Shown here piece by piece: positions 26,514 through 57,010 of a stretch of 64,000 nt of DNA (its first letter is position 1; each line of letters begins with the position of its first letter). The position numbers were made by a program, and so were the translations under genes. The notes below the pieces were generated by a model. It did no database searches. It had not been told where the DNA came from and saw only the letters and a program-made list of their open reading frames with translations. Source of the DNA: Malania oleifera (taxonomy: Eukaryota; Streptophyta; Magnoliopsida; Santalales; Ximeniaceae); contig NC_080422.1 of the NCBI RefSeq assembly GCF_029873635.1, positions 16,646,049 through 16,710,048 on the forward strand, in the 5' to 3' direction.

Positions 26514-27398
26514 CCACACGAATTGAATAAAACCATATATTCTGTTCTGAAATCACATTTCCTGTACAATTGTAGTATTTTCCCAAACTTACCTTTTTTT
26601 CAATTATATTCATATATCACATACTTTCTGAAAATTATTCTACTATTAAATAAAAGTAATTTCAATGGAAAGTGACTATTTTAATTTATCCCCTTACTTA
26701 AAAGCCCCTCTATAATACTGGTCTTACACCCGTAGGAAACTCTAAGCAGTACTCTGAAAATGATAATTTTCAGAACTAAACTTCAGTATTTATTCGAGTA
26801 CATCATTTCCTTCAACTGTGAAAAGACCAAATTTCGAATAAAAAGTCTTACCTCAACTCAGGGATGAATTCCAACTTACTTCCACCAACGATCCGGTCCG
26901 GTAGATTTGGAGAAAACTTCCCCAGGAGCATTGTGGTGGCCTCAGATCGTTGATTCGGTGAACGACGAAGTCGAAATTGAAGAGAGAGGAGAGAGAAACT
27001 GTAGGGAGGGTGAGAAAAGGAGTGATTTCTATTTTTCTGTGTTAAAAATCCGAATTTCAGCTATTTATAGGGCCGGATTTGTTGACGAGACACGTCACCT
27101 CGTCGACGAGTCCTGTAGAAAGTTCGTCGACGAACTTGCATCCTCGTCTATGAATTTCAGACTTCCAAAAATTCTCTCTCGGTATTTTCTCGTCCACGAA
27201 ACTTGGTTTCGTTGACGAGGCCCTCTTGTACCCTCGTCGACGAATCCCCTGCGTTCGTTGACGAGGACCTAATAAATTTCGTCAGTTATTACTCTCAAAA
27301 TGCAATGTTGTCAACGAAGTCTGCTGCCTCCTTTTGTTTTTGTTTCCATTTCCCTTCCTCTCTATTTAAATACCATTTTTATTATTCGGGTCATTACA
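25334..27398 (-). mobile_element. Ty3/Gypsy-type solo LTR, 2065 bp, with target duplication
   Basis: It starts TGTAACGAC and ends GTCATTACA, flanked by the 5-bp direct repeat TGAGC (25329-25333 and 27399-27403). Read on the minus strand it begins TGTAATGACCCG, like the Gypsy LTR at 29329. It has a TATAAATAG box (complement of 27061-27069), preceded by a cluster of TCGTCGACGAG-like palindromes (27081-27265). No internal genes, primer-binding site or second LTR remain, as after recombination between two LTRs. A short array of (C)GGCCTCGCGYCGAA units lies at about 26270-26365, and an (AAT)n tract at 26469-26511. Confidence 0.88.
27061..27265 (-). promoter_or_regulatory. Palindrome array and TATA box of the solo LTR
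   Basis: About eight copies of the 11-bp palindrome CTCGTCGACGA or one-base variants lie near 27081, 27100, 27123, 27143, 27190, 27208, 27233 and 27254. All are upstream of the minus-strand TATAAATAG at 27061-27069. The position fits a U3 enhancer; the binding factor is unknown. Confidence 0.6.
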
Positions 27399-27402
27399 TG
27401 AG

Positions 27403-27870
27403 CAATAGGGGTTTGTAATTTATGGTTGAGCATTCGGTTGGTTTAGTGAATTTGGTTATTTAACCAAAACTTTTCAATTAAAAATATTCGTTAACCGAAC
27501 CGACCAAAATATCATATTTAATCGAACTCAAAACAGACAGAACCGAATTTCAGTTAAATTAGTTAATCGATTTTAACCGATTTAGTATTTAATATATATA
27601 TATATAATATAAATTTTTAATATATAAATAAATATATATAATATAAATAGCACATACAAAATTTTAATATATAATATATAAAAAATAAACAAAATTTTAG
27701 TATATATATAATATATAAATATTTTGATATATAATATACAAATTATTTATTATTAATTTATATTATCCGATTAATTCAAAACCCAAAAATTGAACCGAAA
27801 ATTGAAATTCAACAAAATAAAAATCGAAACGAATCGAATAAATTTGTAATTGAACCAAACTGAATAAATT
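27403..27870. mobile_element. CCGAAT-rich MITE-like element, copy 3
   Basis: It follows the right side of the solo LTR and corresponds to 24370-24815 in the paralogous segment. It has GAGCATTCGGTTGG, AACCGAACCGACC and TAACCGATTT phrases with (TA)n tracts in the middle. Confidence 0.45.
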
Positions 27871-28085
27871 TGTAACTAAATCCATCGACGGTGATGTTTC
27901 CAAACAAAGAAACTTAAATTTGGAATTTGAATTTGAATTTGAAGATTAAGATGATTGTGGATAATTGGGTGTTGGATATTTAATTGAGGGTTAGGATATT
28001 AAATTGGTTGCATGTTTTATGATTTTGTCAGATATATTAAGACGTAGAGATTCTAAATTTGTCTCTATTATATATACACTTAGGG

Positions 28086-29182
28086 ATGGATCCTAGAGGT
28101 AAAGACGTGGATGAAGAAGGAGGAAGCGAGTTAGGAGCTTCCAGCGGGGATGAGATTGACACCTCCCGACTGTTGCAAGGAATAACTTGTCAGGGTAGAG
28201 AAGAAATGAGACGAGACTTCAGGGGATCAAGTTACCCGCCAGTGCACCAAGGTTGCACAATTGATCAATTCACCCGCCTAAAACCCTCATCTTTTGAGGG
28301 TGGTACTGACCCGATCAAGGCTGAGACATGGATGCAAGAGATGGAGAAGATAATGGCAGTGTTGAATTATACTGAGGAACAAAAGGTTCTTTTCGCAACT
28401 TTCAAGCTGGCCGGAGAAGTTGAACGGTGGTAGCACACAGTGAAGCTGTTCGAAGAACAGTGAGCGGTACCTGTAGCAATGACTTGGGGTCGTTTCAAGC
28501 AGGTCTTCTATGACCGATACTTTCCCGCTATCACCAGAAATGCAAAGGCGGAAGAATTTTTCAACCTAACTCAAGGGCGTCTCATTATTCAACAGTATGC
28601 TACTAACTTTTTGAAACTTTCTCGCTTCGCACCTTCCATGGTTCCAGATGAGTACCAAAAGGTGAGATGGTTTGCAAGGGGCCTGATAAGAGGATTCACG
28701 AGCATATGGTGTGTTTGCAGATTCAAAATTTCGCGGAACTAGTAGAGAAAGTTACTATTTCAGAGTTAAGTCTGTAGAGAGGTGCAGAGGCATCAGAACG
28801 AAAGAAAAGACATGTGCCTCCCCACCCCCAAGAAAAAGTAATATAAGGGTCGTGGAGGGGAGACAAAGATGTTGCAGGCCAGGGATCAGAAAGAAATGAT
28901 CGGGGACGACAAGGCAATTCGTCACGCCCTCACTGCCTTAGATGTAACCAGCGGCATTGGGGAGAATGCCGGAGTAGGGGTGTCGTATGCTATAGATGTA
29001 GAAAATATGGTCATATAGCTCAAGAATGTCAAGAACCGTTGAACAATGCACCAACTTCGAACCAGAACCAGAAGAACAATCTGGTGCCTCGCAGCGGCGG
29101 TACCCCAACACGTGTCTATATGTTAGGTACACCTGAAGGGGACAACGCTAAAGGAGCAGGTAACATGTCAACGTTAGCATAA
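28086..29182 (+). pseudogene. Ty3/Gypsy gag remnant
   Basis: It starts MDPRGKDVDEEGGSELGA and contains the retrotransposon gag domain (SSFEGGTDPIKAETWMQE, then LAGEVERWW, broken by a TAG at about 28431). It continues in a second frame (MTWGRFKQVFYDRYFP, then YATNFLKLSRFAPSMVPDEY). After a frameshift near 28700 it ends in zinc-knuckle sequence (CLRCNQRHWGEC and CYRCRKYGHIAQEC, about 28930-29035). The type resembles chromoviral Gypsy gags. Protease, RT, RNase H and integrase are entirely absent; the gag end is only 146 bp from the 3' LTR. The 5' LTR and primer-binding site are also missing. Confidence 0.85.
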
Positions 29183-29328
29183 GTTTTAATTTTGTTTGAC
29201 TTTGTATGATTTGATGTTGCATATATTTGAATTGATTGAAAGGTATGAATGTGGTTAGTTAACTTTTTAGTTGTGAAAATGGGTGATTAACGAATTTTGA
29301 GAGCGAAATTCTTTTAAGGAGGGGAGAA

Positions 29329-31555
29329 TGTAACAAACCGGAAAATTTTAACTATTTATAATAATAAGGAAGATAGTAAAAGGAAAAAGAGGAAATAAAA
29401 GAAAGGGAAAAGAAATTTAAAAAGGGGTAACAACCAGGCACTCGTCAATGAACTGAATTTTCTCGTCGACGAGCTATCGTCTGAGCCTCGTTGTTGAGTA
29501 TGCATGTCTCGTCGATGAAGGTTTATCGAGAGAGGTTCTTATATTTCTGAATTTCGTCGACGAGCTCCCGATTTCGTCCACGAACTATGTTCTTGGGTTT
29601 GTCGACGAGGCCACGTGGCAAGTTGCCTATAAATAGGCAAAAATTAGAATTTTAGCGAAGGATTTCATTTTTCTCTCTCTAAAAATGGTCTCTCTACCTT
29701 CTCTCTTCGAATCCGGCCCAATTTTAGCTCGATTTGATGATTAAAAGCTACCACGAGACTCTTGGGAAGATTCTCTGCAACATAGGTGGAGCAGATTTTT
29801 GGTTTAAAGTGCTTGGGAACCACTCCAAAATCAGGGCAAGTGAGATATTTTATGGTTTTATTATTATTTTGAAATATATGGAACCTAGGAAGTATTAAAC
29901 GAGCATTTTTCTAAGATTTGAATAAGTTTGGATTTTTGGAATACAGGGTCTCGTTTTTGTTTGATTTTAGGCTGAATCTCGAGGAGCAGGTAAGGGGAAA
30001 TACTTTATAACAGATTTTTATTAATTTTAAACTGGTTAATTTTGGGTATAAAATTCTATATATTTAGGTAAATTATTCTAAACGGTGTAGGCATTGAAAA
30101 TATTGTTTTTGAATATATATTATACTGGGAAAAAAATGTGTGGCATGAAAACAACTTTGATAATTAAATGGTTGTGGATGTTGTTTGATTTTGACTGATG
30201 TATACTGGTGGATACTGTTTGGATTGCGAATTCTAGTTGGTTGTGGATACTGTATGATTGTGTATACTGTGGTAGATGCGTGGATGTGCTTGAATGGTTG
30301 GTTTTGTTATTAATTTGTGTTGTGGTTCATGTAAATTGTGATATAGCGTTGGTAGTGGTATGAGGAGGTCGTTATATCATACCTGATATAACCGTCATAT
30401 AACGTTGGCAGTAGTATGAGGAGGTCATTATATGAGCGTTTATATTTGGGGGTAAAACATTGGTAGTGGTATGAGGAGTTTGTTTTACCTATTTACCATG
30501 AACAGGGTGGTTTGTGTTGTAATCTGTGTGATGATTAGTCTTGTGTGGATCGTGTAACCAGTGTGGTTGATAGTCCTGTGTGGACATGTATGTTGTATGT
30601 ATGATAGTCCTGTGTGGACCAGTCTTGTGTGGACATATATGTTGTATGTATGAGAGTCCTGTGTGGACGTTGCATTCTGTGTGGATATGAACTCTCTGTG
30701 GGTGTGAATGAAAATTGTATGACTGATACTGTGTGGATGTGGTATGCATATATGTGTAGAACTCTATGAGATGATTAACATTGGTTGTGTGTAACTTTAA
30801 TTGTTTAAATATTTATGGTAAAGTAGAATACTCTGCCCGAGGGCTTGCTGAGGAAGGCGAGTGCTTTGGTAATTAACTGTGGATACCAGAGTAGAGGGAA
30901 GCCACTTGTATGGGCGGGTGACTTTCCTTATTCTCAAAGACTTTACCTGGATACATAACTTAAGGGCTTACTGAGAAATGTGAGTGCCCTGGTGTTAGCA
31001 CTAGAGTAGAAGGAATCTACTTGTATGAACGGGTAGACTTCTTATTCTCGAGAATTATCAGTAAAAATAATTATGTATGTGTGTATGTGATTGGGTGATA
31101 GAGAAAACGATAATGTTGTGATTAAGGATGCATTTTCTCAACTGTTATAGATAGTAGATTTCAATTATATGTATATGTTGTAATTATATATTAAACACTT
31201 CAACCACACACTGTTGTAACTTATTTCTTCCTTATTGAGAGGTGTCTTACTCTGACGATTTATCAATCTTTTCAGGTCTTCCAGGTGATCGAGCTTAGAA
31301 AGCTCCAAGGCGGGGTAGTTTTGTGAATAAATAAAAAAGAACGGTTATGTGTATAGACGGTATTTGATATTTTGTCTTGATTACGTAATATGGAATATGG
31401 ATGGTTTTTTTATGGGTTGGCATATGTAGATATATATAGCACTCTATTATTTTGTTTGAAGTTATTTAATTAATTTCGCTGCGTGAATGGTATCAGAGAC
31501 GTATGATTGGTCTCATAACACCCCGAGCCCCACGTGGCAGGTCCGGGGTGTTACA
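29329..31555 (+). mobile_element. Gypsy 3' LTR, 2227 bp
   Basis: A polypurine tract (AAGGAGGGGAGAA, 29316-29328) immediately precedes TGTAACAAACCGG. The repeat ends GGGGTGTTACA at 31555. It carries TATAAATA (29628-29635) with CTCGTCGACGAG-type palindromes just upstream (29442-29610). Inside are degenerate repeats: GGTAGTGGTATGAGGAG units at 30350-30480, GTCCTGTGTGGAC units at 30530-30670, and a roughly 120-bp unit repeated at about 30840-31060. The next base enters decayed Copia sequence. Confidence 0.85.
29442..29635 (+). promoter_or_regulatory. Palindrome array and TATA box of the Gypsy LTR
   Basis: TCTCGTCGACGAG (29461-29473), TCTCGTCGATGAAG (29507-29520), TTCGTCGACGAG (29553-29564), TTCGTCCACGAA (29573-29584) and GTCGACGAGG (29601-29610) lie upstream of TATAAATA at 29628. 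The arrangement is the same as in the solo LTR. Confidence 0.6.
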
Positions 31556-32333
31556 TTATGTTTAACCACCAACCTAATATATCTCTTTTTAGAAATTTTG
31601 GTTGCGCTATATATGCTGCTATTGCACCTGCACAACAAAGTAAGATGAGACCACAACGTCGTCTAAGTATTTATGTTAGTTTTGATTCTCTTTCTTTCAT
31701 TAGATATCTTGAACCACTAACTAATGATCTTTTTAGAGCAAAATTTTCTAGATTGTCAATTTGATGAATCAGTTTTTCCGTTATTAGGAGAAGAAAAGGT
31801 AAAGGATTAAAAACACAAGAAATTTTTTGGGACACACTAACTTTGTCTAATCTTGATACACGCACAAATCAATGTGAACTTTAAGTTTAAAAAATAATTC
31901 ATTTGCAGAATGCTGCAAATCAATTGTCAGATGTTTTTACAGACACCAAAAGGGTCACTTAATCACATGTTTCAGTTGCAAATATTCTTGTCAGATTGAT
32001 TGTTCCCGAAGAACACCCAATGGGAACAGCAGCAAATCAATCTAAAGTGCGCTACAAGGGTGGTAGACCAAGGGGTGCAAAGGATACTATTCCTCGAAAT
32101 AAAAAGGAAATGAATAAAAGTGACACTCCAAAAGAATTCATTAACACTGAAGAAGAGGTTAAAAGAAATATAGATCAACAATCCCATTTTTTCACAGAAG
32201 CAACACCAGAAGTGGTTCCGGTATCGGAAAATTATGAGATCTCATTAAAATTTAGAAATATGCGGAGAAGAAATGAAGTTGTTATTGACAATGTGTTTGC
32301 ATATGCGATTGCTTAAGAAATTATTAATGATAA

Positions 32334-32718
32334 TGAGTCTGAGCCTCAAACTGTAGAAGAATGTCAATATCGAAATGATTGGCCAAAATGGAAAGAAGCA
32401 ATATAGACTAAGATAGACTCATTAGCCAAATATAAAGTATTTGGACCAGTAGCCCAAACACCTGAGAATGTCAAATTTGTTGGGTATAAATGGGTTTTTG
32501 TATGTAAAAGAAATGAAATGAATGACATTGTGAGATACAAGGCACGTCTTGTAGCACAAGACTTCTCCCAAATGCTTGGTATAGATTATAATGAGACCTA
32601 TTCCCTTGTTATGGATGCAGTTACTTTCAGATTTTTGATTAGTTTAACGGTTTCTGAAGGACTTGACATACGCCTCATGGACGTAGTAACGTCTTACTTG
32701 TATGGCTCATTGGAGAAT

Positions 32719-32759
<41 letters not shown>

Positions 32760-33530
32760 ATCCCTGAAGGATTTAAAATGCTTGAAGCATATAATCCAAA
32801 ACAACGACAAATGTATTTTGTTAAATTACAAAGATCCTTGTATGGATTGAAATAATCTGGACGAATGTGGTATAATTGTCTAAGTGAATATTTGTTGAAA
32901 ATTGGATATGAAAATAATCTTATCTGTCCTTGTGTTTTTATTAACAAGATAAATTTTAGATTTGCTATAGTTGCAGTTTATGTTGAAGACATAAACATAG
33001 TAGGAACTCCAGAAGAGATCTTAACGACTACTGACTACTTAATAACATAATTTGAGATGAAGGATCCTGGGAAGACAAAATTTTGCCTTGGTTTTCAAGT
33101 TGAACATTTAACAAGTGAAATTCTTATTCATCAATCATCTTATATAGAAAGAATCTTGAAACAATTTTATGTGGATAAATCTTATCCATTAAGCTCCCCG
33201 ATAGTTATTCGTTCACTTGATGTGAAAAATGATCTTTTTCGTACTCGAAAAGATGATGAAGAAATCCTTGGTCCTGAAGTACCCTATCTTAGTGCAATAG
33301 GAGTACTCTTGTATCTTGCAAATTGCACTAGACCAAATGTAGCTTTTGCGGTAAATTTGCTAGTAAGGTTTAGTTCTACACGAACTCAGAGACATTGGAA
33401 TGGAGTAAAACATGTCCTTCGTTATCTCCGTGGCACATCTGATGTGAGTTTGTTTTACCCAAAGGGAGTAAAGTTAGAATTGAAAGGATATGCTGATGCT
33501 GGATATCTTTCTGATTTATAAAGCTCGATT
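32334..33530 (+). pseudogene. Copia reverse transcriptase remnant
   Basis: It reads KFVGYKWVFVCKRNE, RYKARLVAQDFSQMLGIDYN, LMDVVTSYLYGSLENDIY, then a (TA)n expansion (32719-32755) that breaks the frame. Next come PEGFKMLEAYNPKQ, the catalytic-box region VAVYVEDINIVGTPEE and YLSAIGVLLYLANCTRPN. The expected YVDD is YVED, a change at a metal-binding Asp. Confidence 0.85.
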
Positions 33531-33609
33531 ATAAATAGATTATATCTTTACATGTGGTGATACTGCTATCTCATGGCAATTTGTAAACCAAACGATCACC
33601 GTTACCTTT

Positions 33610-33977
33610 ACAAACCATTTAAAATATTGACAGTTCACGAAACAAGTCGTGAATGTGTATGGTTAAGAATTATAATCCAACACATTAAATGGACAAGTGG
33701 ATTATCACTATAGAATGACATGTCAACAATACCGTATGAGGATAATGCAACATGTATTGCACAAATCAAAGGCGAGTACATAAAAGGTGATAGAACTAAA
33801 CATATTTCACCAAAGTTCTTTTACACTCATAAACTTCCAAAGAAAGGAGATGTTGACATTTGCAAAATTCATTCAAGTGACAGTTCAGCAGATTTATTCA
33901 CAAAAGTATTGCCAACTTCAATTTTCAAGAAGCATGTACATAACATTGGAATGCGACAACTTAAGGATATTTCTTAA
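33610..33977 (+). pseudogene. Copia RNase H remnant
   Basis: It contains YEDNATCIAQIKGEYIKGD and RTKHISPKFFYTHKLPKKGD. This is the C-terminal RNase H segment typical of Copia polyproteins, followed directly by the purine tract and LTR. Confidence 0.8.
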
Positions 33978-34354
33978 TTGATTATATTTTTTAGGGAAAA
34001 TATGAATATTGTGCTCTTTTTTCTTCATTAAGGTTTTGTCCTACAGGATTTTCCTTAGCGAAGGTTTTAACAAGACATATTCATAGTGTATAGTTATCTA
34101 AGAGGAAGTGTTGTAAAACATGTATATTTATGTGGATGACTATCTAGATAATAAGTTACAACCTTTGGTATGTCCACATAATGGTTCATTATGTGGTTAA
34201 CCTTTGGGATGCCAATGTATTTGCCTATATAAGGACATGCTTTATAACAAAATTAGATAATAAAATGATTAGCAACATCTACTTCTTGAAGAACTAGACT
34301 ATTGAATTTCTATAGTTCCAAAATTTTTTTCCTCTTTTTATTTCATTTACAACA

Positions 34355-35033
34355 AAAAACTCTCATTAATTTTTCATATATTTTGTTTTTCTTTTTTACA
34401 ATGCTCGGTAACTAAACACGAAAAGTTTAAGAAGATATTACTGTAAAAAATTATGAAAATAAAAATATATATAAAAACTAAAACTAGAAGCAAAATTTAA
34501 TTAAAACTAAAAATTTAAAACTGGTAAACTATTTGGTTAATATTTATAAAACTAATACAAATTAAAATTTTTTATTAAACGAATACTTAATTTTGTCCTT
34601 GGAGCAAATAAAAGTTAACATGTGATCTAAATAATAAAAACACAAAAAAAGAAGCATTATAATAAAAATGTAAATTGTTATAATTATTTACTTAATTGTT
34701 ATACTTTGAAATCCACTTATTAGCACTTAAAGAACAACCTTATTGTACCTGAAAATCAAAAAAAGAGTAAAAATGTTTTTAAATGACTGATTTTTTTTTT
34801 TTATAGAAAAAATTTATAAATTTTTTATTTAAATTATATTTTAAATTCTCATAGTCATTTTAATTAAAATTTATACATAAATTGAGTAACATAATTTGCA
34901 AAACTTAAGCATGTGTATTAAAGTTGTTGTTGCCGAAATCAAATGACTTTCGTAAATTGTTCCTTGATCGCGACCACCTAAAAAGAATCAAGCAAGAATG
35001 ACTTAGAGGACTCAAAATGTACTACAAGGGATC
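34355..35033. other. AT-rich intergenic sequence
   Basis: No gene is seen. It has A/T homopolymer runs and no recognisable repeat ends. Confidence 0.5.
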
Positions 35034-35231
35034 ACTTTGATTAGGGTTAGCTCTTCATAATATGGGGCCTTAGGCAAATGGTTTAATTAGGGGCCTTTAA
35101 TATTTTATTTAATTTTTATTTTTATTTAAAATTAATTTTTCTACCTTCTTGAGATGCAAAATCACTAATTAAAGTTCTATATTCAAGATTTTCAAGTATT
35201 TCTTTTTCTATTGATAACATAATCAATCCAT

Positions 35232-35990: not shown

Positions 35991-36077
35991 TATTTATTTA
36001 TTTTTCTTCTATATTTTTAAAATGTCTTTCAAAAGAAACATCATTAGTTAGCATTTCTCGTATATCAATGCTATCAA

Positions 36078-36119
<42 letters not shown>

Positions 36120-36401
36120 TCATCTCTCGAATTGATTAGTCATCTTTTGTAGGATTTTCATCTTACTCATTTATAATTTGTTTAGAACTAGTAATAATTT
36201 TATCAATAGCTCCCTTTTATTTTCTTTTTCTTTTTTCATTTGTTATATTTGGATTCATATTTTCTCATTGACATAATTAAATTTCAAAATTAACACTATA
36301 TAAATTGACAAATTATGTAAACAAATAAAAATAAATTTAATAAATCTATAAAAATAATAGATTGAAACAATATAACCTGATTATTATTATAATTGCAAAT
36401 C

Positions 36402-38620: not shown

Positions 38621-38624
38621 GTAG

Positions 38625-40154: not shown

Positions 40155-40607
40155 TGTTGTGTATAAACTTGTATATGCATAGTAGAATCTAAACGCAGCA
40201 ACCAATGAAGGACAAATATAGAAGACACACGCAGTATATCTGAAAGCAAGCATAATAACACAAAATTTACGTGGTTCGGTAATGCCTACATCCATGGGAG
40301 CAATTGGCAAAGGTTTTTATTATGTAAATGTCAAAGGAGACAATACAATACAATTCACAATGATCTTCTCTTCTACATACACTTGTATAGATAAAGTTTT
40401 CTTAGGAGGTTTCCCCCTAAAACCCAACCAACTTAACGTTTATTTTCAAATTTTAAATTCAACCTCGCTGCCCAAAAAAAAACCGTCGACGGTTTTAGAA
40501 AATCCATTGACGGTTTCAAATAGTACTGAAATACTACAACAGTTGAACTGCTGCATTTTGAATTTCTTTCATGCTTTCCTTTTGAATGTGAGCCATAATT
40601 CACAACA
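40155..40607 (-). repeat. Copia LTR of element A
   Basis: It is 453 bp. It carries AACCGTCGACGGTTTT and CCATTGACGGTTTC (40484-40520), GTCGAC-type motifs shared with other LTRs in this window. A GTGGTTCGGTAATGCCTACA block is shared with 46850-46870 and 50065-50090. Confidence 0.8.
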
Positions 40608-40708
40608 AACTCCACCTTGGCGAACATAAGCCCCTTAGGAGAAACCGAAAAACATGAACTCGCCGCTCCACCTTGAACTTGGAATGTTAGGTTGGGTTTG
40701 TCTCCCTT

Positions 40709-42470: not shown

Positions 42471-42746
42471 TAATACCTTTAAATTTCAAATTTTTAATTC
42501 ATTTTCTCTCCTTTTTCTATTATTAAATTATGAAAATTATCCGGGCCTTTACATTAACCCTTTCGTTTTTCACTGTTTTACTGTTACTGGGCTGCGGTTA
42601 CACAAAACCGTTGATGGTTTTCTAGTCCCCCACCAAACCGTCGATAGTTTGGTCTGCACCAAAACATCTTCCAACTTTTTTATTTTTTCTTATTATTTAA
42701 ATTTTCTGGGTCTCTAAAGAAAGTCTCAGGAAGTCTGAGACTTCCT

Positions 42747-42784: not shown

Positions 42785-42930
42785 CATATATGTATAATAT
42801 TGTTATAATACTATATTATTTAATTAATAATTATTAATTAATTAATTAAATTTTTTATTTTTTATTTTTACACTTCCATGCATATTATTTTTGGGGTCTT
42901 TACATTCTCCCCTCCTTATAAAAATTTCTA
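42471..42930 (-). mobile_element. Gypsy LTR fragment with polypurine tract
   Basis: On the minus strand a purine tract (AAGGAGGGGAGAA, complement of 42905-42917) leads into TGTAAAGACCCC (LTR start at 42904). That matches the tract-plus-TGTAA junction at 29316-29331. The LTR piece contains ACCGTCGATAGTTTGG / AACCGTTGATGGTTTT motifs (42604-42654) and a (TA)n tract (about 42752-42778). A second TGTAAAGGCCCGG start-like phrase occurs at 42555 (minus strand). Confidence 0.6.
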
Positions 42931-42937
42931 CCCTACC

Positions 42938-43405: not shown

Positions 43406-44078
43406 GATGGGAGACGACCCCAATCTATTGTTTTAGGAGGAGCAGCGGTTATGCTTTTAGATTTCTCCTAAGTGGTGAATATTCGTCAAGGTGGAGATTA
43501 TTAGAAATGTGACTTATATTTGAGTGGAACGCATACAACGAGAAAGCATTGTGAAGCAAAAACAAGAGAGAAGTTTGCAGGAAGAAATTGTCGTTAGTTT
43601 GGGCGATGGTTTGCTCGACAGTTTCAGCCTTGAGGGATAACTGTCGACGGTTTCAGATAATCTGCATGGAATTGCTTTTGGCTTCAAACCATCGACGGTT
43701 TCGTTCGGCGCAAGTTACAATTTTACAATTTGGTGATCAGTAGATTGGGAGGATTAGAGGATTTTTCTACGGGGATTGCAATAGGGATGATTTAGATAGG
43801 TTCTAAGGTTCTTGTACGCTTAAGGTTCAATTATAATCATATATTGTAACCCTAGTTGTAAGCTTGACATTGTGATAGTGAAAATTTCAGTTGTTGTTCC
43901 TGTGGACATGGACACATTGTCGAACTACGTAAATCTTGTGTCTTTGATTATTGCTTTCGTTGATTCTCTTTGGGAGTGGTTGCTTATTCCTTATTGTTCA
44001 TCATTGAGTGCTTGCATTGCTTGTTCCATGATTGTTTCAAGTTTGTGTGAGACTTTTTGTTGCGCTCTTGCACCAACA
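42938..44078 (+). mobile_element. Copia 3' end fragment: RNase H plus LTR
   Basis: RNase H (42938-43405) is followed by the purine tract AAGGTGGAGAT (43488-43498) and an LTR of about 580 bp (43499-44078). The LTR has TATTAGAAATG at the start, probably a mutated TGTTAG, and CCAACA at the end. It carries CTGTCGACGGTTTCAG and CCATCGACGGTTTCG motifs. It lies in inverted orientation relative to element A of a similar lineage. Confidence 0.8.
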
Positions 44079-44149
44079 AATAGCATTAGGAAATAAAGGT
44101 GTACTGCAATTGCATGTTGTGTTGTACATAATATTATTAGAATGAATGC

Positions 44150-46404: not shown

Positions 46405-46452
<48 letters not shown>

Positions 46453-46840: not shown

Positions 46841-47202
46841 TGGTTCGGCAATGCCTACATCCACGGAAGAAATCGACACAACAATTTCACTAAGAAATTA
46901 TAAATACACAATACACTTCTCAAAATGATCTCTCACTTCTCACAATACCCTCAGACAAGGATATATAGACTTTCCTTCAGAGGTTCCCCCCAAAAACCAA
47001 TCAACTTAACGTTCAAATTCAAATTTTGAATTTCTGTCTTGCAGCCCAGAAACCAAACCGTCGACGGTTTTCTAAAATTCTCTGAAACTATTGACAGTTT
47101 GAGATAATGAGAGTATGTTTCTGAAGTTCTCTGAAAATTTCAAAGAAACCGTTGACAGTTTCATAAGAGCCACAACAAACTATTGACAGTTTTCTCTCAC
47201 TT
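46841..47202 (-). repeat. Truncated 3' LTR of element B
   Basis: It aligns with the middle of the 49958-50496 LTR (TTCGGCAATGCCTACATCCA, then CTTAACGTTCAAATTC). It contains AACCGTCGACGGTTTTC plus three CTATTGACAGTTT / CCGTTGACAGTTT variants (47055-47200), with ATATATAG at about 46971. Confidence 0.8.
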
Positions 47203-48967
47203 CCAAGTCACCATGAAGAAACACCGTCTTCACATCCATTTGTTCCAAATGAAGATCATAATGGGCTACCAATCCCAACACAATTCTGATCGAAGTATGT
47301 CGGACCATAGGTGAAAAGATCTCATCATAATTTATTCTTTTCTTCTGTGAGTATCCTTTTGCCACCAACCGTGCCTTGAATTTTACTCATTCCTTTTCTA
47401 AAGTTACCTCCTTCTTCCTATATACCCATTTGCAACCTCTCGATCTGCCAAGTTTGGTTTTTATGAAGTGATTCCATCTCTTTAATTATTGCTCCTATTC
47501 ACCTACATTTTTCCTGGTCGTGCACTACCTCTTGAAATGTAGTTGGATCGTTGCAACTGGTAAGAAAAAAATAAGACACTAACTCTTCAAACCCATACCT
47601 TGGTGGAGGCCTGATAGTGCGTCTGGATCTCCATATCGAAAGATCGTCAACTTGCTGGTTTCCCAAGTTAGAACTCCCTGCAACCATAGGACCTTGATCA
47701 TTTCCGTTGTCCTGAGCTTCCAACTCCACCTATACAACATGTTCATCACTACTCCAACTTTTTGACTCCTATTTCTGTTCATAACACTCTTGAATACGCT
47801 TCACCATAACCTTTTCATCAAGGACTACATCCCTACTAATCACCACCTTGTTTGCCGTTGGGTCCCACAGCTTGTACCCCTTTTCACCCTTAAAACATCT
47901 CAAAAAGATGTAATGACAAGACTTCGGGTCAAGTTTAGACCTCTTTTTACTAGACACGTGAACATAGGCTGGACACCCGAATATTTTCAATTTGGAGTAG
48001 TCTACCATATTTCCTGTCCTTACCTCTTCTGCCACTTTACCCTTTAGTGACGCCCTTGGTGATCGGTTTATCAAAAACTAGTCATACTAACTGCCTCGAC
48101 TTAGAAGTTCTTCGGTAACCTTGCATTAAGCTTGAGACACCGAGTTTTTTCAGTCAGAGTCCGGTTCATCCTTTCTGCCACACCATTTTACTGAGGTGTC
48201 CAGCAAACGGTAAAGTGTCTCTTAATGTCTTGCTGCTCACAAAACTCCATAAACTGAGAATCAGTGTACTCGATTCTATTATCCAACCTCAAGCATTTGA
48301 TTCTTGTCCCTGTTTGGTTTTCTACTTCAGCCTTCCAAATCTTGAACCTAGCAAACGTATCAAACTTATGCCGCATGAAGCATACCCAGACTTTCTATGA
48401 GTAATCATCAATGAAACTCATATAATACACATGTCTATCCTTTGATGCAACTCTAATAGGGCCTCAAACATTGGAATGTACATAATCAAGAATACCCTTC
48501 GTTTTGTGAATAATTGACTTGAATTTTGCCCTGTTTTGTTTTTCGAGTACACAAATTTTGCAAAAGTCCAGCTGACATGATTTCAAAACCTTCAAGAGTT
48601 TTCTCTTGTGTAATTCCTTCATACCATGTTCCCCTATATGCCCAAGATGCATATGCCACAAGACAGTCTCATCAGATTCAGCATCTATGGCTGCAGCTCC
48701 ACCTACAACTGTAGTTCCCTGCAACGTGTAAATATTCCCATCTAACTTTTGCCCTTTCATCACTGTTAGATTTCCTTTCCAAACTTTCATAACCCCACCT
48801 TTGGACTTGTAATTGAAACCATTACAATCCAAAGTGCCAAGAGATATCAAACTCTTCCTCAACTCCGGTATGTGTCTTAAATTACTCAAAGTTCTCATAA
48901 CACCATCAAACATTTTTATCTTCACACTTCCTCTACCAATGACCTTACAAGAAACATTATTACCCAT
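47180..48967 (-). pseudogene. Copia protease-end, integrase and RT-start remnants (element B)
   Basis: 48967-48464 holds GNNVSCKVIGRGSVKIKMFD and the pre-integrase zinc region (HMHLGHIGEHGMKELHKRKL, CKICVLEKQ), ending DYVHSNV. The first integrase Asp is expected where Asn is read. 48376-47769 holds later integrase (CLRLDNRIEYTDSQFMEFC, where TDNG would be typical; then KLKIFGCPAYVHVSSKKRSK). 47729-47180 holds the linker and RT start (MVAKGYSQKKRINYDEIFSP, then QMDVKTVFLHGDLE), where the deletion begins. Stops are frequent. Confidence 0.83.
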
Positions 48968-48979
48968 AAGAACTGAACC

Positions 48980-49932
48980 TCAATTCACTAACCTATAAGT
49001 GCTGAACCACTCCTTGTTTGGAGTCACATGGTAAGAACATGCCGAGTCAAGTATCCAAGAGTCCGTAAGATTATCCGACCCCAATGAAACTAAAAGAACA
49101 CCACCATCGTTGCAAACTGAACGTCCTTCTTGAACCATATTCATTAATTTCAAAATCCCTTCATGCTTTTCAACATTTCCCTTCTTCCAATTCATACAAT
49201 CCGCTTTAACATGCCCATTTTTACGCATTTATAACACCATATTTCCTTTTTTTTTTTCTTGGATTGATAGCGGGATTTCTGAATTGACCCACTTTTGAAC
49301 TTTCTTTTGCCACGCTCATTATAACCTTTCACCACAAGTCCTTCTCCTTCATCTCATATTTTCATCCTTTGATGAAAATTCAGCAAGACACTTGTTACCT
49401 CTTCTAGATCAAGAGTCACTTTTCCCCACGTAAGAGTGGTAACCAGATTTTCATAGATATGAGTCGAAGGCAAAAAGTTTAATAACATCAAAACCTTATC
49501 ATCTTCATCGAACTTAACATAAACTCTCATCAAATAACTTATGATTTGATTAAAAGCGTTAATATGTTGATCTAAGTTTGATCCTTCATCCATCTTAAGT
49601 CAATAAAGATGCTGCTTAAGAAAAAGTTTATTGTTTAGTGATTTCGACATGTACCGGCTTTCCAACTTTTGCCATATAACCACTGGAGAATCCTCCTCCA
49701 TCACACGATAGAGAACTTCGTCAGCCAAACACAAGCGTATTGTAGAAGCAGCCATTGCTTTCAAATCTTCCCATGTTGCCTTATCCATTCCTTTTGGTTG
49801 AACGTCAAGTAGGGCTTTAGCCATTCCTTGTTGCACAAAAATATCCTTGACTCTTCTCTGCCATAAACCAAAATTTCTCACTCCATTGAATTTGACAATG
49901 TCAAATCTTGTAGAAGATGATCTCGATGCCAT
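48980..49932 (-). pseudogene. Copia gag and protease-start remnant (element B)
   Basis: It starts MASRSSSTRFDIVKFNGVRN at 49932 and continues through WQRRVKDIFVQQGMAKALLD and VIWQKLESRYMSKSLNNKL. After a stop at about 49600 it reads DEGSNLDQHINAFNQIISYL and VTTLTWGKVTLDLEEVTSVL. After another break come a zinc-knuckle end and the protease motif SWILDSACSYHVTP at about 49070-49030. Family copies have DSG; here it is DSA. Closely related to the gag at 57036. Confidence 0.85.
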
Positions 49933-49957
49933 GACAACAATCTCTTTGATACCAATT

Positions 49958-50496
49958 TGTTGTAATAAAGATCGGATTTAGGATGCATAGCGGAATAAAA
50001 CATAGTAAGCAACACAACCAGAATATAAGAAACAATAAGAACAACAACAACACGAGAATTTATGTGGTTCGACAATGCCTACATCCATAGAAGCAATGGG
50101 CATAACAATTTCACTAAGAAATTATAAAGTACACAATACAATTCTCAAAATGATCTCTCACTTCTCATAATACCCTTAGACAAGGATCGATATATAGACT
50201 TTCCTTTGGAGGTTTCCCCCCAAAAACCAACCAACTTAACGTTCAAATTCAAAATTTGAATTTCTATCTCATAGCTCAGAAACCAAACAGTCGACGGTTC
50301 TATGAAATTCTCTGAAACCGTCAACATTTTGAGATATCGAGAGCATGTTTCTGAAGGTCTCTGAAAATTTCAGTGAAATCGTCAACAGTTTCAGAAGTGC
50401 CACAACAAATCGTCGATGGTTTTCTCTCAGAAAACTATACCATGTTCTTCCCCTTGTGTAAATTAGTCAACAAGAAATGAGCCCCCATTCACAACA
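49958..50496 (-). repeat. 5' LTR of element B
   Basis: 539 bp, TGTTGTAATAAAG to TTCACAACA. On the minus strand CTATATATCGATC (complement of about 50185-50197) may be the TATA box. GTCGAC-type motifs (ACAGTCGACGGTTC, ACCGTCAACATTTT, ATCGTCAACAGTTT, ATCGTCGATGGTTT) lie upstream of it at 50287-50425. Confidence 0.85.
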
Positions 50497-50749
50497 AACA
50501 TATTAATGTAGATAATTATAAATTTAGATATACGAAAGACTAGGTAAAGCGAGAAACACGAATATTTCACTAGGAAGTTTAAATGTAGTCTATGCTGATT
50601 AATATGGACCGCGTGCATTTAACGTTAACTTCTTGCATAAGCAATTCCAGTACTTATACTGTCGAGACTCTACCAGCCACCTGGTCACTAGTCAGGGAAA
50701 TCCAGCCTTTTTGTTCTTCTAATTATTATTATTATTTTTTCTAAATTCA

Positions 50750-51440
50750 TTGTTGCTAAATTTTGTTCTAATAAGAGAAAATATATTAAAGACTGAAACA
50801 AAATTTCATAGATTAGAATAGAGGTGCTAACTCCAAAAAGATTAGAATAGAGGTGTCTTCAAATCCCTTTGAAGGTTGGACAGCAAAGCCCAAAAAATCC
50901 AAACAAATGGGCATGATGAAGCCAAGAAGACCACTCTTATCCCATAACAAACCATGGAAAAGTTGTATGACCCTTGAATGTTCTTGCATTCCTTACAATG
51001 CAAAGAGTCCATAAGATAGCAAAGACCACACCACTATATAGGATGCGACCCTTTCTACTTGAGCCAAAAACCCACTGTCTCATGAGTTAGAGATCTCACA
51101 CACTATAAGCCACCACCCAAGCTTCACCATAGCTAGAGTAGAGAGCAGCCCAAAGTTGGGTTGCCACCTAACAATGGAGGATAGAGTAAAAGGAAAAGGT
51201 GAGTGCTTGTTTTATTGGACGTGCAACACATGAAGCACACGTTTGGATTAAGAGACACGTAGCGCCTTCTTGTTTTTAACTAGTCATGCATATCAATCCT
51301 TTTCAAAGTTACACTCTAAATGAAGGCCCAAACTATCAGAGGAACCTTAGCTTTCCAAATGATGTCGCTCCAAGGAGAAAAAATGGGAGGAAGGGTTTTA
51401 AAGAGGCGTAAGGAAAAATATTTTAAAGAAAACAAACCTG
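50750..51440 (-). mobile_element. LINE 3' tail fragment
   Basis: DNA-level similarity to the intronic LINE at 7600-8260 is direct. TTGGACGTGCAACACATGAA with GCACACGTTTGGATTAAGAG parallels TTGGACTTGCCACACATCAA with GCATGTGTTGGGACTGAGAG, and AACCTTAGCTTTCCAAATGA parallels AACCTTAGCCTTCCAAATGA. It represents the zf-RVT tail on the minus strand and is not coding. Confidence 0.65.
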
Positions 51441-52180
51441 AAGTTTTTGGATGAATATGAATAGTATTACCTATCCATGTGCATTTAAAGAGCTAGCTAG
51501 CACGATAGTGCAGTTGCAAGTTCTGGTTCAATTCTTTAAATTAAAAGCATGGGCAATATATAAAGAGAGTTTGTAGTAGCTAGCTATCTCACTGATTTTC
51601 AGCATCCTTTATTTTTGCATGCACCAGCCGCCAACTACAGTCAATCCCAAGATTTGGAAATACGTGGTTACTAGAGGAAAGATTTACCCTAAAGAAGGGG
51701 AAGAAACAAAACTATACATGATTAGAATTATCGAATTGAAAAGGATCTTATACATGACATGAGCATCTTAACATCTTCAAATCACCCACAATATCTTTCA
51801 CAACCTAATCCCCAAAACTCAAAGTTATGCTTGAGCTAATTTTGTTTATGTACCAAGAGGGTAAAATAAAAGTGACTTAAAGGAGACACGTTATCCTCAA
51901 TAGACTAAATCGGCTAACCAAGAAGAAGTGTAATGTTGTCAAACTCTTGAAGCCCATGCTTACAATTTAAATGTGTAAGCAATCATATTCATTGTCTAAG
52001 AGTAACCAACCTTTGTCACAAGATCTAGCGACCAAATATCCAAAAAATACATAGCTAGACTGATGCTAACTATAAAATGCTTTTGTATTTCCCTAGAATT
52101 AATATTGCACAACTTCATTTTGAACAAGAAGTGGAGCCTATAAGATTCTTTTCTGAAACACTGCAGACCTTGTTATGGAG
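51441..52180. other. Intergenic sequence, nothing recognised
   Basis: No ORF with a recognisable domain and no repeat boundary was found. Confidence 0.5.
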
Positions 52181-52399
52181 TCACCAGAATTAAACTTGGG
52201 TTTTGCATTTGGGAGCATGGATTTTGAGGCTTAAATTTGAAATATGCATGTAAACCTTTTTTGAGACACCAAATTGACAATATGCATGAATTCACGGCCA
52301 GAGAATTACACTACACAAAAAGAACATAACAAATGCAACCTAATTCATGCAAAATTACCATACGGACATGAAATTCATAAGAGATGGGTAATACGATTG

Positions 52400-53050
52400 A
52401 CTGGAATCCTAGAATATCTAAATTTCTAGTGGAAAAGCACTTAAGAATATGCACACTGAAGAATGGCAATAAACAAGGAATGGTTTGAGAGAACTAAGTA
52501 TCTCTCCAAAGTCAAGATGTTGTCTTCCATTCACAAATGCACCAAACACACAAACTTCTTGCAGTAATCTCTCCCGCTTCCCCACTAGGATGTGCCCCAA
52601 AACAGCTCCTACGTGCTCTATTTATAGGCCATGCATGGTGGTGGAAATGGCATGTGAAATTTTGAATTTGAAATTCAAAATTTCAACTATCATAACTATC
52701 AATCAATAACCAATAATGATTTGGTTCATTGCTTGACACATGGCAACGACCAGGACACACGACACTCCCAAAATCTAAAATCAATCAGATCAAAGAATTT
52801 CAAAATTTGAAAATTAACTGGATTGGTTGACTGCTTATGGGATTGGTTGACCATTATTGGGGTGATGCCAAAAGTCTTAGCACATGTGCGAAAAAAGGGG
52901 AGGCACGGGGACCAGTTGACTGCCTTTAAGTGGCCGATTGACCGACCTGTACAATTTTCATTTTCTCTTTGTTTTAGCTCAATTCTTGAATTTTTCAGCT
53001 AAACTATAAAATGGTTGGTAAAAAAATTCCTATTGACAATAAGTATATGA
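52400..53050 (-). promoter_or_regulatory. LTR-like promoter region (boundaries not found)
   Basis: A minus-strand TATAAATAG (complement of about 52617-52625) has several TTGACY-containing repeats on its upstream side (GGTTGACTGC, GGTTGACCATTATTGG, AGTTGACTGCC, CGATTGACCGACC at 52815-52955). This repeats the motif-cluster-then-TATA layout of the confirmed LTRs here. No TG..CA ends, purine tract or primer-binding site were found, so LTR identity is only inferred. Confidence 0.3.
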
Positions 53051-53310
53051 CATATACTCACATAATTGTATGTATTGTACCAATTAATTCGTTAATTAAT
53101 TACATTATTAATTATATAATAGATATGTACCAAACCATTGATGTGTTAATAATTAATTATATAATTGTGTAATTATATGTAGGTAGATGCAATTGTATGT
53201 ACGTAATTAATTATGTGATTATGTATGTCTCATTCGATCCTTGAGGTGTATGCACAAATATTTAGATGTTTGTTTGTAATTATGTAATTGTACATAAGTA
53301 TATTAATATG

Positions 53311-53918
53311 TATCAATGTTTTCAAAGGTGAAGGTGTAAGGCGAGACATTTTAACCCTTAAGAGGTGAGGCGTAAGCTTTGAGGTGTTGAGGTGTAAGCC
53401 TTTTAAGAATAAGGAATATGTAAATAAAATTTATAAATTTTTAAAATAAGGAAAAATTAAGAAAATCACAAATATAATGTAAGAAAGAAATTATACATAC
53501 TTTGCAAATTACTTGTTGGCCGTTCAATAATTGCTAACATTAATTGTGACAACCGATAGTTATACTATTACAAAGTTCAAACTATTTTCATGATCTAAGA
53601 TACAACTCTCAATTATTTTGGAAAAATTGAGGCCCAAGAGTTCTAGAAATCAACTTATATTATGGAATTCCTCTTATACAAACATGTTGAAATTTTTAAA
53701 CCAATTCTTACTCGAAAATCACACGCCCAAAATGCGTAAGCCTCAACTGAAAAGGCGCAAAAGACGTGCCTTTTGTAAAAATGCAATAGTCTCAACATGA
53801 AATGCATTAGCCTTTTTGGAATTTGGCATTTTAGATTGAACCTCAAGGCATTTTAGGCATGTCGTGCCTTGAGGCGAGCCTCAAGTTAACCTTGATTGAG
53901 CCTTTTGAAACACTGATA
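53311..53918. mobile_element. MITE-like element rich in AGGCG/CGCCT
   Basis: The ends TATCAATGTTTTCAAAGG (53311) and the reverse complement of CCTTTTGAAACACTGATA (53901-53918) are imperfect terminal inverted repeats. Next to both are AAGGCG/CGCCTTGAGGCGAGCC-type stretches. It is 608 bp and non-coding. No target duplication was identified. Confidence 0.5.
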
Positions 53919-54179
53919 TGTTTGTATGTAAGTCTATACGTAAGTGCATAGACATGCATATTAACTAATTGCGCAATTGTGTGTGTATAGACATATATAT
54001 TGTGTAGTGCGGACACACACATACATATGTCCATCTACTTGAGGCGTGTGTAAGTATATAGATATAATTGAACATAATTAATGTGTGTATATATAAATTA
54101 ATTAACACTTGATTCTATATATTTTTTCAATCAATTTCTGTTTATATGTAAGCATAAGTTTCTGAAGAGAACTTCATCA

Positions 54180-54480
54180 AGATAGCAAGAAAATCTGAGC
54201 ACCCTGAGGACATGACAATCAAATTCTGGTGGTCAATCCTCAAGATTTTGGGTTAGGAGACGAGACTGACTTGTTGAGAGCAATATTGTCACAGAGCCAA
54301 AAAATAACCCTCAAGCATGAGCGAGAAGAGAGAGTGAAGAAGATATTGAGCAGTGCACAACCTCATCCTTACCACCAGATGGTTGTGCATCACATATGTG
54401 AGCTTCTTAGAGTGCATTATGGACTGCCTGCCCTCGCTGTGACCATCAAGACTGTGTGCCTCACCTAGTATTTTGGCGAT
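54180..54480 (+). other. Unassigned coding-like stretch
   Basis: The frame 54229-54468 gives ETDLLRAILSQSQKITLKHE, then SSAQPHPYHQMVVHHICELL and RVHYGLPALAVTIKTVCLT before a TAG. Composition looks more protein-like than the surrounding DNA, with few low-complexity runs. I do not recognise the family. It may be a gene fragment or a processed pseudogene exon; there is no intact gene model around it. Confidence 0.2.
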
Positions 54481-54739
54481 TAGCTCCATGCACTTTAAAA
54501 TTAAATGGGTGAATAGGTTTACCCATGTTTAAATGGGTAGGGACATAGATCAAGTTATTTTTATGTAAATGGGTCATTAATGACCTGATCCACTCTCACC
54601 CGTACCCATCCATAACATGCCTAGGCTGTACCATCCATGGTTTTGTCTCTCTGTGCATGGTTTTCAATGAAATTTTATAATTCTCCCTAGCAAGAAAACT
54701 AAATGATTATGTAATATTTTGGGAACATGAGTTTGTGAG

Positions 54740-54877
54740 CCACTATGAAGAGCTGTCATACTTCAAGTCGCCACTATTCTTTTTCATCTTTTGTTTATAT
54801 TTAGTGCAAAAGATTTATGTAACCGACCCTACTTAATGAGGTTAAAACTTAGTTTTGTTGTTGTTGTTGTTTTGGAA
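54740..54877 (+). repeat. SINE-like 3' tail, second copy
   Basis: It ends CGACCCTACTTAATGAGG, then TTAAAACTTAG and a (TTG)n tract (about 54854-54871), like 108-157. A further (TTG)n tract at about 55267-55286 may mark another tail. Confidence 0.4.
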
Positions 54878-56455
54878 ATTAAATTGGACAAGAACTGTGT
54901 CAAATAACATTCTCTTCTATTAGAGACTTAAATATACAATTATCAAAGGAATTGATTATGTTCCTCAGATTAAATTTTTTCACTTGAAAATTTTCATATG
55001 AACTAAGTGAAATAACTTTCTATGAATAAAAGTATGAGAAGATGCAGAAGTGTTCATACGTGGTCACCAACTGTGGATGTAAATTTTAAACAATCATGAA
55101 CAATCATGTTTCCTGATTGCTCTTGAACCTGGCTAGCTAGACAAATATTTCAGTCTTCTATTTGTTTACTACATGATTTTGCCAACTGCATGTATTTTTT
55201 TTTTAATTTTCCATTCCTTGGTCATCTGTAATATGGTCTGTATGTAATTAATAACTAATTTGAGCTTTGTTGTTGTTGTTGTTGTTTTTTTACTAATTTG
55301 ACTATTACTTATAGTCATGGTGAGCGTGTAATCAGACCATTTCATATCACAGCCACTACACAGCAACACAGACTGAACCATCAATGCATGAAAACCAAAG
55401 AAGCCAGAAGGGCTTATCAAATTTGCAGCATTTCAAATCTGAGGAGCCAACACTGGCCTGCTCTGTGAATCTCCATAGCAGCACCAAAATGGTGCTTGTA
55501 GGCAACGCAATAAGGATTGCTTTTTCAGCTTCCCGAGTTGTGGAGGTTGGAATCTGCCATCAATGTGGTCAGTAGGTCAGCTTCACATCCCCTTTTAATT
55601 TTTATTGGAATTTCTCTTAAGTTAGCCCAATATCTAAACCTTAAGCACATAATCAAAACTAAAATCACGGTTTGAGGAAACTTACATCGTTGTTCAGAAT
55701 TTCCAGAAAAATAAAAAATAAAAAAAAAGAGAAAGAGAAGTTCACTGTTCATTCAAAGAATAAACCAGAAATTAGAATCCATGGCCACACAAGCAAGACA
55801 TCTATAAAGTATATGGTCATTCCCAATTATTCCAAAACATCTCAAAGACATTATCTTGCTTGTTTATGTTGAAACACCAAATTACTTACAATTTGAGCTA
55901 AACAAGACTTCAAAGATTAATAGTTTCCATACTCCACAATCTAATTGAAAAAAAAATAAAATTTCAGCATACTTTAAGTTGAGCTAAATACATAAAATAA
56001 AATCCAATTTCATGGAAGATGGGCATGGCTACTACTGTACACAGTCATGCTGCCACCACTGAGACCACCATTTTGACCTTCCATTGATTCCAATTTTTTT
56101 TTAAACCTTTGCAGAGACTCGTATTATTTGTCAGTTGTGATTTGGGAGAAATTTTTGAAGAAAAAGAAGCAGCACCTCAGGAGCTATTTCAGCCTTGCCC
56201 AGAAGCAATGGCTGCTGCATTCGGCCATGGCGGCTACCCACATAGCCACCACACAGAAATCCAGATCTCAACACTCATGCGCAACAACCAAGAAAACACC
56301 AACCATCAGCAGGGGCTACCATTGTTGCTGCACTAACCCATGGAGAGCCCCACGCTGGCCTGTTCTATGCATCTCCATAGTCTACCCATGACTACCTTGA
56401 CGACTTGTCATATTCATATGTTTCATCATCGCTCCTAAAGATTCAGAGAAACAAT
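54878..56455. other. Intergenic sequence, nothing firmly recognised
   Basis: No domain was recognised. A CACTGGCCTGCTCTGTGAAT phrase at about 55455 recurs in variant form at about 56350 (ACGCTGGCCTGTTCTATGCA), both followed by CTCCATAG. That hints at a diverged duplicate. Confidence 0.4.
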
Positions 56456-57010
56456 TGTTGTTTATGGTGTGACTCTTATACTTGGAGTTTCATAAACAAG
56501 GGAAGGAAGAAGAACATGAAGGGGTTGCATAGCAGACACTTGTGGCACTCATCGACTAGTGCCCTGAGCTCATCGACAAGTAGATGCCCAGAGTTAGAAT
56601 TTCTCAGAATTGAAAACTCGTCGACGAAAGTATGGACACGTCGACGAGTGGTCTTCTTCGTATCGTCGACGAAGTCTTGTACTAGTCGACGAGTATCGCT
56701 TGGGCCACAAAGAGAAATTCAAAATTTGAATTTGGACGTTATGGTAGTTGGGTATTTGGAGGGAAACCTCCGAGAAACTTCTATTTATGTATTTCGGAAT
56801 GTATTTTGTTCATAGAGAACTTTGTAAGACTTGTGTATTGTTGTTCTTCACATTATAGTGAATATTGAGTGTCATTTGTTTTATTCTTATGTGATAAATT
56901 GTTGTTTCTCATCCATATTGGTTGTGTGTTGTTGAGGCTTGGTGATTTGTTGCAAATTTATATCTTTCGCTGTGTGTGTGAGTATCCTATACTTGATTCC
57001 AATCACAACA
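56456..57010 (+). repeat. 5' LTR of element C
   Basis: 555 bp with TGTTG..CAACA ends. GTCGAC palindromes cluster at 56551-56695 (ACTCGTCGACGAAAG, ACGTCGACGAGTGG, ATCGTCGACGAAG, TAGTCGACGAGTA), upstream of a weak CTATTTATG at about 56779. Confidence 0.88.

Follow-up and report, generated by a model that had tools for sequence, protein, structure and literature searches.

The long terminal repeats (LTRs) of Sireviruses carry highly repeated palindromic motifs (RMs) that lie upstream of the TATA box and border CpG islands (PMC2829016, Bousios et al. 2010). In the sections of that paper available to us these motifs are called Sirevirus-specific and absent from its classic Copia set, 12 of 13 of them (all but that of Tnd-1) bear a CGG-CCG signature, and near-identical RMs are described as recurring in elements of very low sequence homology. 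Sharing across superfamilies also has a precedent, since the excerpted text of a study in maize names a single palindrome that ranks first among structured motifs in Copia as well as in Helitron elements and describes the cis-regulatory regions of several families as arrays of sometimes palindromic repeats (PMC10760457). A further arrangement of this general kind, as far as the consulted part of the source goes, is that of the BII boxes of Tnt1, several of which lie in a Copia LTR promoter and are said to bind defence-induced factors (PMC3316501). Here we describe clusters of short palindromes in a 64-kb stretch of the Malania oleifera genome (contig NC_080422.1, positions 16,646,049 to 16,710,048; hereafter the window), in which one palindromic core recurs in the LTRs of both Gypsy and Copia retrotransposons. 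The reading that we favor, with moderate confidence, is that these clusters act as promoter platforms in the U3 region of the LTRs for a shared dimeric host factor, with CGTCGACG as the putative core contact.

All of our numbers come from this single window, in which seven elements (E1 to E7) carry eight clusters that together amount to 979 bp, or 1.5% of its length. The window is AT-rich (34.7% GC) and contains 15 copies of GTCGAC, compared with a mean of 2.83 and a maximum of 6 in 100 dinucleotide shuffles. The original prediction had placed GTCGAC-centered clusters in Gypsy and Copia LTRs, and this was confirmed, with 14 of the 15 copies lying at the places that it had named and one elsewhere (23553). 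It had further proposed that the two superfamilies share a core palindrome and that the sites come in two flavors; the core common to both flavors is longer than GTCGAC, namely the 8-mer CGTCGACG, which holds three CpGs. Exact copies of this 8-mer number ten, every one inside the eight clusters, where the same 100 shuffles gave a mean of 0.02 and at most 1, and its z is the highest among the 31,128 8-mers that occur in the window (10 seen, 0.04 expected). It also forms the densest array among the 224 palindromic 8-mers with all four bases, with 6 copies in 200 bp where no other exceeds 4. Allowing up to one mismatch raises the number of copies to 27, of which 21 fall in the clusters; the other 6 are at 18078, 21222, 21225, 23552, 25015 and 27883.

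Flavor 1, YTCGTCGACGAR, has 15 matches with up to one mismatch, all in three clusters (27.1, 29.5 and 56.6 kb), and flavor 2, AAACCGTCGACGGTTT, has 12 matches with up to three mismatches, all in five clusters. The former is found in Gypsy (E1, E2) and Copia (E5) elements, the latter in Copia elements (E3, E4, E7) and perhaps in a Gypsy element (E6). Flavor 1 is not exclusive to the clusters when matched more loosely, in that matches with two to three mismatches are present elsewhere too, for example one with two mismatches at 18076. As a control we used a repeat bounded by LTR-like direct repeats (14969 to 18397, with an inverted relative at 59949 to 63646), which contains no GTCGAC and one core with a single mismatch, at 18078. 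Its direct repeats are 395 bp long and 92% alike, its frames look Copia-like, and the inverted relative begins just past the broken 3' LTR of E5. A lone flavor-2-like site with four mismatches lies at 27879 to 27894, outside any recognized LTR.

The earlier suggestion that two superfamilies share a core palindrome, located where a U3 enhancer would be expected, is supported, the superfamilies being identified by gag sequences beside two of the arrays. The array at 29.5 kb adjoins a Gypsy gag (Pfam Retrotrans_gag, E 5.5e-11; zinc knuckle zf-CCHC, E 5.2e-05), which survives in stop-broken pieces as the internal remnant of E2 (28044 to 29182, plus strand; zinc knuckle in two of the three pieces tested). 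The 3' LTR of E2 (29329 to 31555, plus strand, 2227 bp, TGTAACA...TGTTACA) is preceded by a polypurine tract and begins 146 bp after the gag remnant, and thus no space is left for pol. Its array (29441 to 29609, plus strand) comprises seven flavor-1 palindromes, one of which (29487) has three mismatches, and TATAAATAG lies downstream at 29628 to 29636 (plus strand). Between the array and the TATA box, at 29610 to 29619, there is a perfect GCCACGTGGC palindrome, which we take to be G-box-like, and the LTR downstream of the TATA box contains a 49-bp tandem repeat (30572 to 30668, about 2 copies, 93%).

E1 is a solo Gypsy-type LTR on the minus strand (25334 to 27398, 2065 bp, TGTAATGAC...GTCGTTACA), flanked by a 5-bp target duplication, TGAGC (25329 to 25333 and 27399 to 27403), and matched by a paralogous empty site near 24370. 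The surrounding DNA is an old duplication (24174 to 24751 against 25117 to 25333 plus 27399 to 27839, 80% and 72% alike), of which one copy received E1 and the other, 24174 to 24751, is the empty site. The original prediction had mistaken 27081 to 27265 for the solo LTR itself, and this stretch is in fact the array (27078 to 27265, minus strand, eight flavor-1 palindromes), with TATAAATAG downstream at 27061 to 27069 on the same strand. A further site with three mismatches, at 27307, also lies within this LTR. The third Gypsy candidate, E6, is an LTR piece with two flavor-2 palindromes (42605 to 42650, minus strand), in which a polypurine tract and a TGTAA start near 42905 resemble those of E2.

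Among the Copia carriers, E5 has a 5' LTR of 555 bp (56456 to 57010, plus strand, TGTTG...CAACA) with six flavor-1 palindromes at 56548 to 56693 (plus strand) and a TATA-like TATTTATG near 56782. The LTR is followed by a primer binding site, TGGTATCAGAGC, at 57014 and by a Copia gag (57000 to 57728, plus strand; Pfam Retrotran_gag_2, E 1.5e-23), while of the 3' LTR about 100 bp is kept (59825 to 59925, plus strand), with a decayed palindrome at 59905 (CTCATTGATGAG) and matches to another repeat from 59949. E4 is akin to E5 (69.2% over 1351 bp of internal DNA and 81.8% over 77 bp of LTR), although their flavors differ, and E4 is assigned to Copia through this DNA likeness, as E5 is through its gag. 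Its 5' LTR (49958 to 50496, minus strand, 539 bp, TGTTG...CAACA) and its incomplete 3' LTR copy (46841 to 47199, minus strand) each carry four flavor-2 palindromes, at 50285 to 50422 and at 47055 to 47192. E3 is an LTR copy (40254 to 40607, minus strand, start TGTTGTGAATT at 40607) with flavor-2 palindromes at 40480 to 40495 and 40501 to 40516 (minus strand) and a loose TATA-like TATCTATAC near 40393. In E7 (43585 to 43701, plus strand) the flavor-2 sites predicted for this Copia LTR are present at 43585, 43638 and 43686 but mostly decayed, the first with five mismatches and only two of the three with two or fewer. Pfam identifies the gag of these carriers as Copia-type and gives no finer lineage; we presume them to be Tork/Tnt1-like.

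In Gypsy and Copia LTRs alike the clusters are found upstream, between the LTR start and the TATA box. In the sense of transcription the centers of successive flavor-1 palindromes lie 21, 25, 19, 46, 20, 24 and 21 bp apart in E1, 21, 25, 21, 45, 20 and 25 bp in E2 and 21, 48, 20, 25 and 20 bp in E5, and the resulting spacer lengths (9, 13, 7, 34, 8, 12, 9 in E1; 9, 13, 9, 33, 8, 13 in E2; 9, 36, 8, 13, 8 in E5) are near-identical between Gypsy and Copia. Flavor-2 centers are 31, 61 and 30 bp apart in both LTRs of E4 and 30 bp apart in E6, with E7 (53 and 48 bp) and E3 (21 bp) as exceptions to the 30 to 31 bp spacing. The outermost letters of flavor 1 are symmetric in 9 of 21 copies, where 10.4 would be expected, so that symmetry is limited to the inner 10 bp and the dyad proper is TCGTCGACGA. 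Within the three flavor-1 arrays the similarity among the short spacers, which are few and give low power, does not significantly exceed that of shuffles (P 0.22, 0.09 and 0.13), and Tandem Repeats Finder (TRF) returned no tandem array over the eight clusters apart from one 20-bp array of a 10-mer at 50298. What has been kept is therefore the sites and not repeat units.

Distances to the TATA box could be given for six LTRs (E1, E2, E3, both of E4, and E5). The claim that the palindromes sit right upstream of a TATAAATA box holds for the two Gypsy arrays, where TATAAATAG follows the last palindrome at 9 bp (E1) and 19 bp (E2), but not for Copia, in which the TATA-like site lies 89, 89, 88 and 87 bp from the last palindrome in E5, E4 5', E4 3' and E3, across both flavors. 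When the Copia LTRs are aligned the flanks of this last palindrome are homologous and its core is kept, while its outer letters differ by flavor. Copia LTRs, with flavor 1 as well as with flavor 2, also have an AT-rich near-palindrome (AAATTCAAAATTTGAATTT or its reverse) in the interval that separates the array from TATA (56715 to 56733, 50245 to 50263 and 47015 to 47033).

The CpG observed/expected ratio is 1.00 to 2.64 in all eight clusters, compared with 0.59 for the window and 0.0 to 0.68 in six other LTR parts sampled. Transitions of the CpG type (C to T or G to A at a CpG) make up 14 of the 21 changes in 21 flavor-1 copies and 26 of the 35 in 15 flavor-2 copies, counts that lean to well-kept copies because these were picked by consensus likeness within arrays, with the sites at 27307 and 59905 and the matches with two to five mismatches outside arrays omitted. 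Decay of this type fits methylation of the sites after insertion, a step that we infer from the pattern of changes, and the copies in the window are CpG-decayed relics without constraint.

Set beside the Sirevirus RMs, the arrays share with them a dyad-symmetric motif in many copies, set in the upper LTR half ahead of the TATA box and CpG-rich, and the RM listed for a Vitis Sirevirus in the consulted part of PMC2829016, CGGTCGACCG, is likewise centered on GTCGAC. Dyad symmetry with several copies per LTR is found in E1, E2 and E5 (8, 7 and 6 flavor-1 copies) and in E4 (4 flavor-2 copies per LTR), and a TATA-like site, loosely defined in Copia, lies downstream of the cluster and its CpG-rich stretch in six LTRs. 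RMs are also defined by at least 8 copies per element, a number found in E1, with 7, 6 and 4 in other elements, which are decayed or cut. In contrast to the RMs as they appear in that part of the paper, the palindromes here have no CGG-CCG signature (flavor 1 is without it and flavor 2 has CCG before CGG), and the arrays occur in Gypsy LTRs as well as in Copia; E2, having a Gypsy gag, cannot be a Sirevirus. The maize palindrome reported in the excerpt of PMC10760457 differs in sequence (CACCGGACNNNGTCCGGTG) and in the pair of superfamilies concerned, with no mention of Gypsy in that excerpt, and the resemblance to the Tnt1 BII boxes, judged from the accessible part of PMC3316501, lies in the presence of several boxes in a Copia LTR promoter.

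Clusters of short motifs with turnover from one family to the next are likewise a feature of VANDAL transposons (the VANC recognition motifs), but these are DNA transposons whose motifs are recognized by a protein that the element encodes. The Tnt1 BII boxes differ in sequence from the palindromes described here and are known from the Tnt1 family only. Among the matches listed in the open literature (titles and abstract starts), the motif occurs in LTRs only as the Vitis RM (PMC2829016). The REM/CLSY3 docking motif was set aside, as the form given in the available text of PMC12270911, TTTTGCTTATNTTTTGCTTAT, is unlike these palindromes. No relatives of the elements were found in the collections searched (viral contigs, genome contigs and protein queries). 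Pattern scans of viral contigs gave 29 loci and 1 locus, with GC of 0.57 to 0.72 over the whole locus and at least 0.56 around the densest cluster, which we took to be chance matches in GC-rich microbial DNA. All 35 loci from one scan of genome contigs were bacterial or archaeal by title, and protein queries from two Copia remnants produced 14 and 7 candidate stretches, none of which was confirmed as a relative. Rfam returned no family at gathering score.

Under the platform reading, each palindrome would be a two-fold symmetric site bound by a dimeric host DNA-binding factor or by its paralogues, and flavor 1 ((Y)TCGTCGACGA(R)) and flavor 2 (AAACCGTCGACGGTTT) would be variants of one site that differ in specificity. 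With several sites at fixed intervals (20 to 21 and 25 bp, or 30 to 31 bp), binding may be cooperative and may so promote transcription from the downstream TATA box, and the Gypsy and Copia elements of the host would use the same class of factor, whether by parallel evolution or through a common origin of the arrays. After insertion the sites would become CpG-methylated and then decay. We favor this reading because the sites are kept while the short spacers are free, because the spacing is set and the clusters are placed between LTR start and TATA, because CGTCGACG is the top 8-mer by z with its exact copies confined to these LTRs, because the last Copia palindrome keeps its core and homologous flanks though the flavor differs, because CpG observed/expected in the clusters exceeds that of the window and of other LTR parts, and because the Sirevirus RMs and the Tnt1 BII boxes provide precedents.

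Several observations weigh against it. The distance from array to TATA is unequal between the superfamilies, being 9 or 19 bp in Gypsy and 87 to 89 bp in Copia; the TATA pattern used for Copia is loose, with about 0.6 chance matches per 100 bp on one strand; and the equal Copia offsets reflect in part shared descent, since the four Copia LTRs are related. The clusters of E4 are not CpG-rich in absolute number, with 4 and 7 CpGs in 138 bp, and the Gypsy label of E6 is weak, its basis being a 14-bp match of polypurine tract and LTR start to E2 alone. Moreover, the 5' and 3' LTRs of E4 differ at 16 of 64 palindrome positions, as compared with 17 of 152 others, and the sites were thus unprotected after insertion, as would be expected of dead copies.

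The original prediction had offered a common host factor, convergent promoter capture or exchange of LTR parts, and of these the common factor fits best, whereas for exchange the evidence is mixed. In the latter scenario, the flavor-1 U3 array would have passed in one piece from an LTR of one superfamily to an LTR of the other, template switching in reverse transcription being one conceivable route, and the Gypsy and Copia arrays would be homologous. We regard this as possible, if on the unlikely side, and retain it because the spacings match. When the spacer lengths of E5 are set against those of E1 m3 to m8 (the last six positions), none differs by more than 2 nt; among 200,000 random partitions with the total length held constant, 255 fit this closely and 1256 fit to within 3 nt. 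For the in-register similarity of the E1 and E5 spacers, 1 of 2000 shuffles and 2 of 2000 random cuts score as high, and for that of E1 and E2 the numbers are 1 and 34. The long spacer of E1 scores against E5 as well as it does against E2, being equaled at 61 to 73 and 77 to 101, respectively, of some 42,640 window positions (0.0014 to 0.0017 and 0.0018 to 0.0024) or, by another scoring, at 37 (E5) and 62 (E2) of 127,932. These figures are uncorrected for the number of comparisons (three pairs in register and in the second scoring, 14 pairs by window positions), and no pair other than E1-E2 and E1-E5 gave a fraction below 0.10. E2 and E5 spacers, by contrast, are unlike (145 of 2000 shuffles, 122 of 2000 random cuts; long-spacer fractions 0.12 to 0.14), and, as far as order goes, 12 of the 120 permutations of the spacers fit as well, the layout being nearly mirror-symmetric.

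Sequence comparison likewise speaks against movement of the array as a block. A BLAST comparison of six LTR pieces in 15 pairings, plain and palindrome-masked at E 0.05, gave no match between E1 and E5, and between E2 and E5 only two matches of 13 bp and one of 38 bp, each at E 0.043. E1 and E2, on the other hand, share two colinear matches, of 95 bp (70.5%, E 7e-6) and 49 bp (79.6%, E 0.004), the first of which vanishes on masking while the second persists. When the outer letters are compared position by position, E1 and E5 have 3 of 12 in common and E2 and E5 3 of 10, as against 9 of 14 for E1 and E2. The remaining matches are short: 19 bp for E1-E7 (E 0.001, outside the arrays) and 24 bp for E2-E7 (E 0.013); 27 bp for E4-E6 (E 0.002, a palindrome plus 11 bp) and 20 bp for E6-E7 (E 7e-4), both of which vanish when masked; and an 18-bp AT-rich match for E5-E6 and E4-E6 (E 0.008). 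Cassette exchange is thus possible and weakly supported, in that the spacing fits it and BLAST does not. A bolder version, which we consider rather unlikely, is that a portable U3 cassette with a fixed spacer code around the CGTCGACG core moved between Gypsy and Copia, and that its flanking letters change in place, from one flavor to the other, while core and position are kept, in the manner of an arms race centered on a single host regulator.

A role at the RNA level appears improbable. Here the self-complementary units would fold the U3 transcript into hairpins that either take part in RNA processing or give rise to small RNAs, and four of the eight clusters do fold with unusual stability (z -3.20, -3.90, -3.84 and -2.42, with 0 of 200 shuffles as stable in each). 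Small RNAs are in excess at maize Sirevirus palindrome clusters, according to the consulted part of PMC10760457, which cites Bousios 2016. The folding signal is, however, automatic, as any mutually complementary palindromes will fold together. A perfect palindrome, moreover, has no loop and cannot fold on itself. Neutral, functionless amplification of a CpG-rich unit in the manner of a minisatellite is hardly credible, for although slippage can produce repeated motifs inside LTRs, here the palindromes are alike and the short spacers not clearly so, TRF found no real array, the core is in two superfamilies and the spacing is tight.

The platform type is thus one already described, in Sireviruses, and what is new here is a different core and its presence in both LTR superfamilies. 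Palindrome arrays upstream of TATA had been reported as a trait of Sireviruses only, and one core is now seen in both superfamilies of a single host, which suggests that retrotransposons of unrelated lineages either arrive independently at one control element or exchange it. The motif is exact enough to be counted, and together with the spacing rule it offers a means of tracking down the proposed host factor and of testing on a genome scale whether promoters are exchanged.

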